From positions 1 to 36,123 of the forward strand of contig PLZP01000085.1 of the NCBI GenBank assembly GCA_003152215.1: a stretch of 36,123 bases of DNA, in the 5' to 3' direction. Every line of letters starts with the position of its first letter. Position 1 is the first letter of the stretch. A model generated the notes under the pieces. The model worked only from the letters and a program-made list of their open reading frames with translations, made no database searches and was not told where the DNA came from. The stretch is from Acidimicrobiaceae bacterium (GTDB taxonomy: Bacteria; Actinomycetota; Acidimicrobiia; Acidimicrobiales; RAAP-2). Positions 5,998-36,123 of the stretch are shown one piece after another. The translations under genes were made by a program, and so were the position numbers.

Positions 5998-6567
5998 GTG
6001 GCTGACGAACTACGTGCGGTGAACACCCATCTCGATCGCATCGTCATTCAAGGACCTTCGGGCAGTGGCAAGACGACGCTCGCGGCGCTACTCGCCACCA
6101 GGTTGAAAATTCCGCATTTGGAGTTGGACGGGTTGTTCCACCAACCCAATTGGACGCCGCTAGACCTCGAGGCGTTCCGTTCCGCCGTTGACGTATTCAC
6201 CGAACAATCGCGGTGGGTCGTCGACGGCAATTACAGCCACGTGCGCGACATTGTGTGGACGCGCGCGGACCTGATCGTGTTCATTGACCTCCCGAGGAGA
6301 GTCGTGACGCTACGTGTCGTGAAGAGGACCTTCCTTCGTCTCCTTCGTCGTGAAGAGCTTTGGAATGGGAATCGCGAATCGATTCGCAACGTACTCTCGA
6401 CGGACCCGACGAAGAACATCGTGGTGTGGTCGTGGAAGACACACGCGAAGTATCACGACGAAGTGCCCGAGGAAGCGCGAGCGCTGGCGGACCACGCCCG
6501 CGTCGTGACGTTGATCAGTGCCCGAGATGTCGAATCGTTTCTCGAGACTGTTGTTGCGACGCCGTGA
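5998..6567 (+). CDS. P-loop NTPase of the adenylate-kinase / FlaR (topology modulation) type
   Basis: 189-residue nucleotide-binding protein. The Walker A loop is GPSGSGKTT at 19-27, followed by IPHLELDGLFHQPNWTPLD (38-56), a stretch characteristic of small kinase-like proteins annotated as AAA-family ATPase or DNA topology modulation protein FlaR. Further along are the WVVDGNYS and VFIDLPRRV segments that form the core strands, and an Arg-rich lid-like helix region (RTFLRLLRREELWNGNRES). These proteins are probable small-molecule or nucleoside kinases, but no member's substrate can be inferred here. It starts with a GTG behind a leaderless -10 and is convergent with the phosphotransferase gene. 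Confidence 0.85.
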   Translation: MADELRAVNTHLDRIVIQGPSGSGKTTLAALLATRLKIPHLELDGLFHQPNWTPLDLEAFRSAVDVFTEQSRWVVDGNYSHVRDIVWTRADLIVFIDLPRRVVTLRVVKRTFLRLLRREELWNGNRESIRNVLSTDPTKNIVVWSWKTHAKYHDEVPEEARALADHARVVTLISARDVESFLETVVATP

Positions 6568-32599: not shown

Positions 32600-34549
32600 T
32601 TAGGAACCGGGAGCCCTCTCAAGCTCCTGTTGGGCGAAGGGAAGGGGAAAGCCGGCAATGAAGAGGTGTCGGTCGATGACGTCGAGCAGGTGTTGCAGAT
32701 CGAGCGGTTTTGTAAGATAGTCATCGACACCGGCGTTCTTAAAGCGTCGCTGTTGCCACGTCGTCGCGTCGGCGGAGAGCACGACGACGGGAATGTCGAT
32801 CGTGCGCGAATCGCCGCGCAGGCGTTCGAGTACGTCGTAGCCGTGAATATCGGTCAGGTGGACGTCGAGCAGAATCAGCGATGGCTCGTACTGTTGCGCC
32901 AGATCGACACCGAGCACTCCCCGCAACGCAGTGATGAGGCGAATTGAAGGTCGTTGGAGCAGCAGTCGCTCGACCAGTTGCACATTCGCGACGTCATCTT
33001 CGATGTAGAGCACGGTGATTGTTGGAAAGGACTTCGCTTGACGTACGAGCGACGGCCGGGCGCGCGACGAGAGGGTCTTTGCGTGCTCGGCGACGGGGAG
33101 TTCGATCCAGAAGGTTGATCCCTGTCCCACGACACTGTCGACTCCCAAGGTGCCGCCGATTGCCTCGGTGAGACCTTTCGAGAGCGCGAGACCGAGTCCA
33201 GTGCCTTCGATACCCGACGACTCGGCGTCGAGGCGGTCAAAAGGTGTAAAGAGACGTTCGCGCAGTTCGGGATTGATTCCCGGACCCGTGTCGGTGACGG
33301 AGAGTCGAACCCGTCCACCCTCTTGGGTGCAGTTCAGTGTCACGGTACCGTCAGGACGGTTGTACTTGATTGCGTTGGACAAGAGGTTGAGCAGGACCTG
33401 CTTCAGCCGTTGCTGGTCTGCGAGTACCTGGACGTCGTAACTGGAACGCGAGTTGATCGTGATGCCGAGTTCGTTGGCCTGGGGAGCGACGAGTTCGACG
33501 CACTCGTTCTCGAGTTCCCTCAAGGCGACTGGCTCATTCATGACGCTGATGTGGCCGGCCTCGATGCGCGAGATGTCGAGCACTTCGTTGATCAGCTCGA
33601 GGAGATATTTTCCCGAGTGGTGAATGTAGCCGACCACTTCGAGTGCGTCGGGAGAGGTGAGTTCCATCTCCAAGATTTGGGCAAAACCGAGCACCGAGTT
33701 GAGCGGCGTGCGCAGTTCGTGACTCATGCGTGACATGAACTCGCTCTTGGCTTTGTTGGCGCGCTCGGCCGCCTCCTTCGCATCCTTTAGGCTCATCTCG
33801 TCGGCCACTGACTCGGTGACGTCGCGCGAAACGAGCACAGCGCGAGGTGCGTCACCATTCGCGTCTCGAATGAGTCGCCCCCTCGTCTCGATTGTCAGCA
33901 TTCGCCCGTCAACGTGCTCGGCGCGGAACCGGTAACTGGTGAGGTTCCCGTCTCCACCTTTGAAGAGGCGGTGCAGCTCTGATGCAACGTGAATGCGGTC
34001 GTCGGAGTACACGATGGTGCGCGAGTTCTGCCCGACTCGGTCCACCTTTGACACGCCATAGATTCGGTCAGTGCCCGGACTCACGTCGAGCACGAGGAAG
34101 TTGTCGTCGACCGTGATGATCGAGTCAACGACCGCGTCGAGGATTGCCCGCTTGGTCTCGAGACTCGCGGCCAGCGCGCTTTGGTTTTCGACCTGAGCCG
34201 TGATGTCGCGGCCGGCCGAAAACACCATGCCGTTACGGCCCTGACAGCTCCACTCAATCCAGCGGTACTCGCCGTCACGTCGGCGTTGGCGGTTGCGGAA
34301 TTCTACGAGCGTCGCATCAGGTAGTGAAACCAGTCGATCGAACTCTCGCAGAGTTGCCGCGACGTCGTCAGGGTGAATCAGGTCAATGAATGGACCATTC
34401 TGAAGATCCTCGAGGGTCCAACCCATCGAGTTGGGCCATGCCGAATTGACGACCTTCCAGGTGCCGTCGCTGTCCAGAATCGACATGAGATCGGTGGAAG
34501 TCCAAAAGAACTCCCCGACGTCAGATGCGTCGACTCTCTCCCTGGTCAT
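32600..34549 (-). CDS. Hybrid histidine kinase: two PAS domains, kinase core and receiver
   Basis: 649-residue soluble sensor kinase. Two PAS domains (about 12-120 and 130-250; the first has MSILDSDGTWKVVNSAWPNSMGWTLEDL and its PAC end EFRNRQRRRDGEYRWIEWSC) are followed by a short coiled coil, the H box SHELRTPLNSVLGFAQILEME with His277, the N box LLNLLSNAIKYNRPDGTVTL, the G1 box DTGPGI and the G2 box GTGLGLALSKGL. The C-terminal receiver has IEDD, the phosphoacceptor Asp562 in LILLDVHLTDIHGYD, and the Lys in YLTKPLDL. It therefore autophosphorylates and may pass the phosphate to its own receiver. No signal peptide or membrane segment is present. The start 34549 follows CGGAG; ATG 34627 is the longer option. 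No partner regulator lies adjacent. Confidence 0.92.
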   Translation of the reverse strand: MTRERVDASDVGEFFWTSTDLMSILDSDGTWKVVNSAWPNSMGWTLEDLQNGPFIDLIHPDDVAATLREFDRLVSLPDATLVEFRNRQRRRDGEYRWIEWSCQGRNGMVFSAGRDITAQVENQSALAASLETKRAILDAVVDSIITVDDNFLVLDVSPGTDRIYGVSKVDRVGQNSRTIVYSDDRIHVASELHRLFKGGDGNLTSYRFRAEHVDGRMLTIETRGRLIRDANGDAPRAVLVSRDVTESVADEMSLKDAKEAAERANKAKSEFMSRMSHELRTPLNSVLGFAQILEMELTSPDALEVVGYIHHSGKYLLELINEVLDISRIEAGHISVMNEPVALRELENECVELVAPQANELGITINSRSSYDVQVLADQQRLKQVLLNLLSNAIKYNRPDGTVTLNCTQEGGRVRLSVTDTGPGINPELRERLFTPFDRLDAESSGIEGTGLGLALSKGLTEAIGGTLGVDSVVGQGSTFWIELPVAEHAKTLSSRARPSLVRQAKSFPTITVLYIEDDVANVQLVERLLLQRPSIRLITALRGVLGVDLAQQYEPSLILLDVHLTDIHGYDVLERLRGDSRTIDIPVVVLSADATTWQQRRFKNAGVDDYLTKPLDLQHLLDVIDRHLFIAGFPLPFAQQELERAPGS

Positions 34550-34812: not shown

Positions 34813-34963
34813 TCAGGCTCGTTGCACCAGTGCGTCGAGGTAATAACGAATCTGAATCGTGACCGCGGCACCTTCGCCGACCGCTGACGTCCAACGCACC
34901 ATCGAGAAAACTCGTATTGGGATCGAGTCCGATGAAGACGAAGGCGCCGGCACGATCTTTCAG
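34813..34963 (-). pseudogene. trxB: Fossil of a thioredoxin reductase C-terminus
   Basis: On the minus strand, 34963 to 34886 reads DRAGAFVFIGLDPNTSFLDG then ALDV, the strand-turn-strand that precedes the second FAD motif in thioredoxin reductases (GVFVxIGxxPNT). From 34887 to the stop at 34813-34815 a shifted frame reads SAVGEGAAVTIQIRYYLDAL then VQRA, the C-terminal helix that follows it. Between them about 40 residues, including the GDV FAD-binding motif, are missing. The two pieces abut exactly, so one internal deletion explains the change. The remaining 250 or so N-terminal residues are absent and the fragment touches the anti-sigma gene's stop. It is not translatable as an enzyme. Confidence 0.75.
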
Positions 34964-35214
34964 TTATCGGAGCGGTATTGACGAAAGAGATTGACGAGGC
35001 CCTCAACGACGTCGCCCGGCAGATCCTCGGGCCCGACGCGGCCGCTGGCGGCGACGGTCGCACGAACCTGTTCCACGTACGCCTGACAGGCATCGCACGC
35101 CGCGAGGTGCTTTTCGAGGCGTCGCCGATCGCGCCGAGAGAGGGTACCGTCGAGATAATCGCTGACGAGTTCGACTGCGTCGCGGCAGACCAGTGGCGAT
35201 GGGAGCAACTTCAT
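34960..35214 (-). CDS. Zinc-finger (zf-HC2) anti-sigma factor
   Basis: 84-residue anti-sigma protein without a membrane segment. It has the zinc-binding anti-sigma motif, with Cys10 in VCRDAVELVSDYLDG, His36, Cys40 and Cys43 in LEKHLAACDACQAY (H-x3-C-x2-C), followed by a helix that would wrap the sigma factor. Small soluble ZAS proteins of this type are often redox-responsive, as RsrA is for SigR in Streptomyces: oxidation releases zinc and frees the sigma factor. Whether this one is redox-active cannot be told from sequence. Its ATG (35212-35214) overlaps the sigma TGA as ATGA, so the pair is coupled. Confidence 0.92.
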   Translation of the reverse strand: MKLLPSPLVCRDAVELVSDYLDGTLSRRDRRRLEKHLAACDACQAYVEQVRATVAASGRVGPEDLPGDVVEGLVNLFRQYRSDN

Positions 35215-35810
35215 ATCTTCGTTCCCCTCATGGCCGATTCAACTATTCCTCGAACCTTCGCTCGACCGCGGTGCAAGATAACTCGCACATTCGCCTCGCT
35301 GAGTCCGAGCAGTGTGGCCACCTCCTCGGTAGATAGTCCTTCAACGTCGCGAAGCGTTACGATCGCTAACTGTGGTTCGCCAAGTGATGCGATGGCGTCG
35401 CGCACTGCGTTCACCAACACACTGTTATCCAGTCGCGCATCGACGGTGTCGGTGAAGGGGACAGGCGGATCGCTCCACATTCCGCCACTGTTAAATCGAG
35501 AAGGGGGGACCGAGGGGCCCGACTCTCTTGGGTCGGTCGGCACCGTCCGATGCTCCTTCACCCCTAACGTTCGCGCTCTATTGATACAGATTCGAAGCAA
35601 CCAGGTTTTGAAGGAGCTGCGTCCTTCGAACTTCTCTGCGCCGCGTATCACGGCGACCCACGTGTCTTGGGCGACATCTTCGGCCGAGGCGTGGCTCTTG
35701 ACGTAGTAGCCCGCGACTTTTACCAGTGTCGCATGGTAGCGGTGGACGAGTTCGCTAAACGCCGCCTCGTCGCCACCGAGCATTCGCCCCAAGAGCTCTG
35801 CGTCATCCAC
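35211..35810 (-). CDS. ECF (group IV) RNA polymerase sigma factor
   Basis: 199-residue extracytoplasmic-function sigma factor. Region 2 (about 10-80) has DEAAFSELVHRYHATLVKVAGYYV, then AEDVAQDTWVAVIRGAEKFEGRSSFKTWLLRICINRAR, the -10-recognising part. Region 4 (about 135-185) has LGEPQLAIVTLRDVEGLSTEEVATLLGLSEANVRVILHRGRAKVR, the helix-turn-helix for the -35. Between them is a long linker with GGMWSDPP, a motif seen in one actinobacterial ECF group. It starts with GTG at 35810, 7 bases after TACTGT on its strand, so it is probably expressed from a housekeeping promoter. It is divergent from the secreted protein that carries the putative ECF promoter. Confidence 0.95.
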   Translation of the reverse strand: MDDAELLGRMLGGDEAAFSELVHRYHATLVKVAGYYVKSHASAEDVAQDTWVAVIRGAEKFEGRSSFKTWLLRICINRARTLGVKEHRTVPTDPRESGPSVPPSRFNSGGMWSDPPVPFTDTVDARLDNSVLVNAVRDAIASLGEPQLAIVTLRDVEGLSTEEVATLLGLSEANVRVILHRGRAKVRGIVESAMRGTKI

Positions 35811-35837: not shown

Positions 35838-35871
35838 ACTCTGTAACGCGATCCGCGCTCGTCGGACTGTT
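35838..35871 (+). promoter_or_regulatory. Putative ECF-type promoter of the secreted-protein gene
   Basis: ACTCTGTAACG (35838-35848) and GACTGTT (35865-35871) with 16 bases between, identical in both blocks and in spacing to the site upstream of dipZ (18618-18651). Transcription would begin near 35878, 28 bases before the ATG. Confidence 0.6.
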
Positions 35872-35905: not shown

Positions 35906-36123
35906 ATGAAGGTACACCGCATACTTCGAACGCTCGCTGCGACGAGCCTGATTGTCGGCGTTGGCGTTATCGCGACGACGACATTCGCGGGAGCGACATC
36001 GGCCAAGGACCTTGCACCGACGGGTCACGCCCTCTTCGTCGAGACCGACGCATCTGCTGGTAACTCGGTGCTGAGTTACACCCGCGGCACCGACGGGACA
36101 GTCTCGTACGTCGCGACGTACGA
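35906..36123 (+). CDS. Secreted protein, possibly a lactonase-type beta-propeller (cut by window end)
   Basis: Only the first 72 codons are inside the window. The ATG at 35906 is preceded by AAGGAG (35895-35900). The product starts MKVHRILRTLAATSLIVGVGVIATTTFAGATSA, a Sec signal peptide with an Arg/Lys start, a hydrophobic core and an Ala-x-Ala-type cleavage region. The mature part begins KDLAPTGHALFVETDASAG then NSVLSYTRGTDGTVSYVATY, matching the first blade of lactonase/3-carboxymuconate-cyclase-like beta-propellers (ALFVxTNxxxGNxVxxY-x-R-x-x-DG-x-L). The divergent ECF sigma factor and a putative ECF promoter suggest that it belongs to the sigma factor's regulon. The assignment is moderate because most of the protein is not seen. 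Confidence 0.75.
   Translation, partial: MKVHRILRTLAATSLIVGVGVIATTTFAGATSAKDLAPTGHALFVETDASAGNSVLSYTRGTDGTVSYVATY

Follow-up and report, generated by a model that had tools for sequence, protein, structure and literature searches.

What gene once stood directly behind a sigma/anti-sigma pair of a peat-dwelling member of the Acidimicrobiaceae, and what does its wreck tell us about the pair? The question was raised by a sequence-only reading of a 36,123-nucleotide stretch of DNA (hereafter, the window), which noticed the debris of a thioredoxin reductase behind an anti-sigma gene and took it as a sign that an ancestor had carried sigma, anti-sigma and trxB as one unit with a role in thiol stress. 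Here we trace the remnant, its intact counterparts in related genomes and the candidate targets of the sigma factor.

A reductase remnant behind the anti-sigma gene

The minus strand of the window at 34813-34952, beginning 7 nt past the anti-sigma stop codon, contains two pieces of a thioredoxin reductase-like C-terminus in two frames (Table 1). Translation of one frame yields GAFVFIGLDPNTSFLDGALD (the same piece is also given as AGAFVFIGLDPNTSFLDGALD), and that of the second frame yields AVGEGAAVTIQIRYYLDALVQRA followed by a stop codon. A profile made from the proteins of seven relatives and run over the entire window scored 29.7 bits on piece 1 (profile positions 320-345) and 29.2 bits on piece 2 (positions 367-397); the runner-up stretch of the window scored 2.1 bits, and the maximum among 500 dinucleotide-preserving shuffles of a 412-nt region was 8.9 bits. 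With both pieces far above the shuffles and the rest of the window, the relic is real. The span originally assigned to it, 34813-35214, does contain the fossil but also takes in the intact anti-sigma gene. Joined into one peptide, the fossil pieces had no match in Pfam and a single one in NCBIfam, to AhpF at 19.1 bits, and the DNA of 34813-35810 had no match among plasmid records.

Table 1. Positions of the remnant, the deletion junctions and the neighboring features in the window
Feature	Position	Strand	Description
PAS/histidine kinase/receiver gene	32600..34549	-	In relatives, also found behind the reductase gene
Residual open frame, 46 aa	34813-34953	-	GTG spans junction 1; ends in the reductase C-terminus; no sign of being a gene
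Fossil piece 2	34813-34889	-	Frame B; last 24 codons of the reductase, SAVGEGAAVTIQIRYYLDALVQRA, and stop at 34813-34815
Junction of deletion 2	34889..34890	-	104 nt absent compared with 6/6 relatives; frameshift
Fossil piece 1	34890-34952	-	Frame A; 20 reductase codons, AGAFVFIGLDPNTSFLDGAL
Junction of deletion 1	34952..34953	-	Past the anti-sigma stop and ahead of piece 1, 961-971 nt of six relatives absent
zf-HC2 anti-sigma gene, 84 aa	34960..35214	-	PF13490, 52.8 bits; 4-nt overlap with the sigma gene
ECF sigma factor gene, 199 aa	35211..35810	-	GTG start; Sigma70_r2, 61 bits; Sigma70_r4_2, 52.1 bits
Candidate promoter TGTAACG-N15-GGACTG	35842..35869	+	Only exact-pattern match in its own genome; points to the lactonase-like gene
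Lactonase-like gene (PF10282), 5' part	35906..36121	+	Beta-propeller; runs past the window end

The intact row in related genomes

We surveyed 99 genomes of the genus, 33 of which carry the sigma factor. In six of these 33, the sigma gene, the anti-sigma gene and an intact reductase gene stand in a row, which is complete in G072, G067, G034, G076 and G010 and, in G105, runs open into the contig end with nine residues missing. The anti-sigma stop is separated from the start of the reductase gene by 9-12 nt in the four genomes that were measured (G034, G072, G067 and G010). The gene order of the window is the same as that of these relatives: typA precedes the row in all six, a PAS kinase gene and pheA follow it in five, and a decarboxylase gene in four, the flanking genes absent from these counts being those beyond contig ends or the ends of the compared stretch. 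A tree of 23 sequences, built on the sigma and anti-sigma factors, unites the window with the six row-bearing genomes and also, when G105 is set aside, with the other five, both groupings having an ultrafast bootstrap of 86, below the usual 95; the pairing of the window with G010 received just 42. Given this grouping, we place the window inside the row-bearing clade. Thus, the supposition that an ancestor had the sigma gene, the anti-sigma gene and a gene of the thioredoxin reductase type in a row is borne out by six congeners that keep the row, share the neighborhood and group with the window.

The lost gene itself, however, is not trxB as it had been named. The intact counterpart directly behind the anti-sigma gene in the congeners encodes a 403-residue glutaredoxin-thioredoxin reductase fusion (hereafter, GrxTR). 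In the protein of G034, the N-terminal glutaredoxin domain (PF00462, 50.3 bits at residues 8-66) carries the motif CPDC, and the C-terminal Pyr_redox_2 domain (PF07992, 152.9 bits at residues 92-382) carries CATC; the fossil has lost both CxxC motifs. The fusion scores below the cut-off of the TrxB model TIGR01292 (278 bits for G034 and 276.4 bits for G010 against 343.45, with all 300 positions matched) and below that of the mycoredoxin model TIGR02200 (75.5 bits for G034, and 67.6 bits, against 89.5). In the 48 solved sequences that match GrxTR, the best stretch never starts before residue 84, so the glutaredoxin part is unmatched there. Eight listed of 931 plasmid records match GrxTR over 96-97% at 35-42% identity, and among these eight listed matches, seven are named FAD-dependent oxidoreductase.

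The genome that the window comes from also encodes an intact TrxB, on a separate contig (C55:66770-67690; 388.4 bits, above the TIGR01292 cut-off). An origin of the fragment from this housekeeping gene was rejected, trxB being intact there and the relatives carrying the fusion at the place of the fossil. The neighbors of trxB, named from their ORFs, are parA, parB, an amidase gene, a gene for a small membrane protein and murJ, and no sigma gene was seen beside trxB among the ORFs of that region (G000:C55:62000-73000; L130, L131). The same 127-contig draft yielded no GrxTR match at an E-value of 1e-70.

A tblastn search with GrxTR (E-value 0.05) over 31 sigma loci, some of them from the same genome, returned the already known GrxTR matches only and hence no further relics. 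An apparent second decayed GrxTR, in G066 (L087), was rejected, its break being an N run near the contig end. In the titles and abstract openings of the open-licence literature, we found no description of such a row or of the fusion beside a sigma factor.

Two deletions in a gene that was probably lost recently

Alignment of the window to the six row-bearing relatives mapped two deletions. Gone with deletion 1 are the start codon, the glutaredoxin domain in full and, together with the CATC motif, most of the FAD/NADPH thioredoxin reductase part; just ahead of the junction survives GAAAG, which overlaps the anti-sigma stop and resembles a ribosome-binding site. Deletion 2 had been described as a clean internal deletion of about 40 residues; an internal deletion indeed exists, but it removed about 35 codons and shifted the frame. 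With two deletions and a frameshift compared with six counterparts at the same place, we consider it highly probable that an ECF sigma/zinc-type anti-sigma/GrxTR row once stood here and that 34813-34952 is what remains, as a pseudogene, of its third gene. Loss from an ancestral row is the simplest reading. Among the 47 retained codons, 12 differ by an amino acid change between the window and G072, compared with 14 between the intact genes of G072 and G010. The fossil codons being about as conserved as those of living copies, the loss looks recent, and no claim can be made that the fossil decays faster than the living copies do. In itself, the fossil looks like ordinary gene loss.

This level of codon change would also fit an assembly artefact, in which the assembler collapsed or mis-joined a GrxTR gene that the living organism has in whole form. 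The source genome, the only one of its species in the comparison, is a draft metagenome assembly of 127 contigs with 89.5% completeness, so an intact GrxTR could sit in the missing part, and two-base N runs interrupt the neighboring lactonase-like gene just beyond the window end (L027:6125-6126 and 6337-6338), about 1.2 kb from the fossil on the contig. However, there are two separate deletions, neither of which has N at its junction; the anti-sigma stop, GAAAG and the flanking genes are all in place; and junction 2 has a 3-base overlap, CGT, as a real deletion at short homology may leave. We therefore regard an assembly artefact as very unlikely. That the remnant is still a gene, with the 46-aa frame translated by coupling to the anti-sigma gene and serving a new role, strikes us as extremely improbable: although its GTG lies at a workable distance behind GAAAG and the frame stays open to the reductase C-terminus, the first 22 or so residues are out-of-frame sequence, too little is left for a reductase domain, and there is no relative for comparison.

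Linkage of GrxTR to the sigma factor

At an E-value of 1e-70, GrxTR was detected in 61 of the 99 genomes: 28 of the 33 with the sigma factor and 33 of the 66 others (Fisher p 0.0009, ignoring relatedness). The five sigma-bearing genomes without it are that of the window, G005, G009, G018 and G077. Of the 28 genomes with both genes, 13 have them no more than 4 kb apart, in one of three arrangements: six show the row, in two (G071 and G015) GrxTR comes after the lactonase-like gene on the divergent arm, and in five (G036, G075, G066, G120 and G064) it sits 2.7-3.8 kb from the sigma gene on the same strand. In G025, a contig without a sigma gene carries GrxTR behind the lactonase-like gene. Altogether, GrxTR is linked to the sigma factor in 14 of the 28 genomes; in the other 14, which are drafts, it is not near the sigma gene on the same contig. 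Separately, the two arms look as if divided between two copies of the sigma gene in G064 (C210, C211): one copy adjoins the lactonase-like gene, and GrxTR lies 2.7 kb from the other.

A divergent lactonase-like gene and its candidate promoter

On the other side of the sigma gene, the divergent lactonase-like gene encodes a protein whose N-terminus looks signal-like. This gene was detected, at an E-value of 1e-25, in 21 of the 99 genomes, all 21 of which carry the sigma factor; in 17 it is located beside the sigma gene and in four it is not. Conversely, 12 of the 33 sigma-bearing genomes lack the lactonase-like gene compared with the five that lack GrxTR. Because all 21 genomes with the lactonase-like gene also have the sigma factor, we consider it the best candidate for a target. 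Among the window and the row-bearing genomes, it is present between typA and the sigma gene in the window, G067 and G076, and undetected in G072, G034, G010 and G105. In G034 (L028:1341-1800), the lactonase motif and the start-codon region seem to be kept and the gene body was not found, which is perhaps the mirror image of the loss in the window.

The motif TGTAACG-N15-GGACTG, first seen by eye, recurs upstream of many sigma genes, oriented toward the divergent lactonase-like gene and away from the sigma gene. An exact-pattern search with a spacer of 14-16 nt found it at 19 places in 15 of the 99 genomes, compared with seven for the reversed control. Nine of the 19 places are just before a lactonase-like gene, two are upstream of a sigma gene without a detected lactonase-like gene, two are inside sigma genes, and six are elsewhere, about the control level. 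The exact motif thus precedes just nine of the 21 lactonase-like genes, with near variants at some others. Since it faces the lactonase-like gene, the motif gives no support for control of GrxTR by the sigma factor in the row-bearing genomes. Transcription of the sigma genes themselves seems to be leaderless, from a TANNNT-like box; a GAAC-type promoter upstream of them was rejected, the regular-expression matches being scattered and unconserved.

The sigma/anti-sigma pair and its possible role in thiol stress

The sigma factor of the window is of the ECF type, with 90.9 bits against a cut-off of 42.9 for TIGR02937 (sigma70-ECF) and with Pfam regions 2 and 4. Its anti-sigma factor, probably soluble to judge from size and sequence, has C10 and H36-x3-C40-x2-C43, and an N-terminal cysteine together with H-x3-C-x2-C, the motif of RsrA-type zinc anti-sigma factors, is found in all 23 anti-sigma factors compared. 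According to part of PMC7406223, soluble anti-sigma factors are enriched for a motif of this type, which is possibly structural. The kinship to SigR/RsrA assumed in the sequence-only reading does not hold, with both proteins far below the family cut-offs: 35.1 bits against 251.55 for the sigma factor (TIGR02947, SigR/SigH_actino) and 33.7 against 62.5 for the anti-sigma factor (TIGR03988, RsrA). None of 10 genomes contains a protein above the TIGR02947 cut-off. In G015 (L040/L093), the sigma frame crosses a run of N and continues into the anti-sigma gene, and we treat this fusion as apparent only, an assembly gap seeming to join the two on paper.

How far, then, do the reductase and the pair belong together? 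It is possible, if on the unlikely side, that GrxTR and the pair are functionally unrelated and owe their proximity to neighborhood inertia. The two are unlinked in half of the genomes that have both, half of the genomes without the sigma factor still carry GrxTR, the candidate promoter is on the other side of the sigma gene, and no such motif precedes GrxTR in the cases at 2.7-3.8 kb (L084, L086, L087 and L089); yet linkage recurs in three arrangements, and GrxTR is significantly commoner in sigma-bearing genomes, relatedness being ignored. At the opposite extreme, the locus could be a full thiol-stress unit of the SigR/RsrA type, with trxB among its former targets. A fusion of a mycoredoxin-like domain and thioredoxin reductase adjoins the pair in six genomes, the cysteine and H-x3-C-x2-C are present in all 23 anti-sigma factors, and mycothiol is likely, not sure, in the genome of the window because of an MshC-like match (420.5 bits against a cut-off of 485.1, with one TAG inside; none of 10 genomes is above this cut-off). 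SigR promoters are of the GGAAT/GTT type. The low family scores, a motif that is not of this type and a trxB proper that occupies another locus, where no neighboring sigma gene was seen, all argue against such a unit, which we consider improbable.

Between these extremes, a thiol role of the sigma factor is plausible. The type of the enzyme, its recurrent linkage and the conserved zinc motif speak for the thiol-stress role that had been proposed; the one promoter-like motif found at the locus, which faces the lactonase-like gene, and the persistence of the pair without the enzyme speak against it. To judge from the short gaps, GrxTR would be co-transcribed with the pair. With electrons from NADPH, it could reduce oxidized or mycothiolated proteins by way of its own mycoredoxin-like domain, which it would reduce first. 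A thiol or oxidant signal in the cytoplasm might cause the anti-sigma factor to free the sigma factor, which would then act on a small set of targets, the divergent lactonase-like gene being the best candidate. In the lineage of the window, the enzyme arm apparently was lost recently, whereas the sigma factor, the anti-sigma factor and the lactonase promoter were kept, so the switch, if working, works without a reductase of its own; the housekeeping TrxB may cover for the lost GrxTR. More speculatively, and with rather long odds against it, the row could be a self-resetting thiol switch, in which GrxTR directly reduces or de-mycothiolates the oxidized anti-sigma factor and a secreted lactonase-like protein is the output. 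If so, the window would be a natural case in which the reset arm has been lost, and would show that the switch can persist once the general TrxB takes over.

The main use of the remnant is the hint it gives about the purpose of the regulator. The wreck beside this regulator pointed correctly to a row that is still extant in sister species, a useful indication that gene fossils beside regulators betray former partners. Here, an ECF sigma factor of peat Acidimicrobiaceae that fits neither the SigR nor the SigH models is tied to a mycoredoxin-thioredoxin reductase fusion and a lactonase-like protein, and genomes with and without the reductase offer a natural comparison for what the sigma factor responds to.

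Comparison with known systems

The fusion resembles AhpF-like and glutaredoxin-thioredoxin reductase FAD-dependent oxidoreductases in having a redoxin-type domain before a low-molecular-weight thioredoxin reductase; it differs in its single mycoredoxin-like domain and in a reductase part below the TIGR01292 cut-off. With SigR/RsrA of Streptomyces and SigH/RshA of Mycobacterium and Corynebacterium, the pair shares the order of an ECF sigma factor followed by a small H-x3-C-x2-C anti-sigma factor, as well as the association with a redox enzyme. Unlike those systems, the pair of the window is below the family cut-offs and has a different candidate motif.

In mycobacteria and corynebacteria, a locus has the order sigM, anti-sigma, trxB, trxC, and in mycobacteria sigM and its anti-sigma gene sit beside trxB, between the murJ side and the parB/parA side. 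The order trxB2-trxC-cwlM is given in part of PMC7527780, and a paper on SigM and disulfide stress appears, by title, in the reference list of PMC3489674. The sigM locus is the nearest known arrangement, likewise having an ECF sigma gene, an anti-sigma gene and a thioredoxin reductase gene in a row. At the comparable place in the genome of the window (murJ, small membrane protein, trxB, amidase, parB, parA), however, trxB stands without a sigma pair, and the row of the window, with no thioredoxin gene seen in it, is a separate locus built around a glutaredoxin-thioredoxin reductase fusion.
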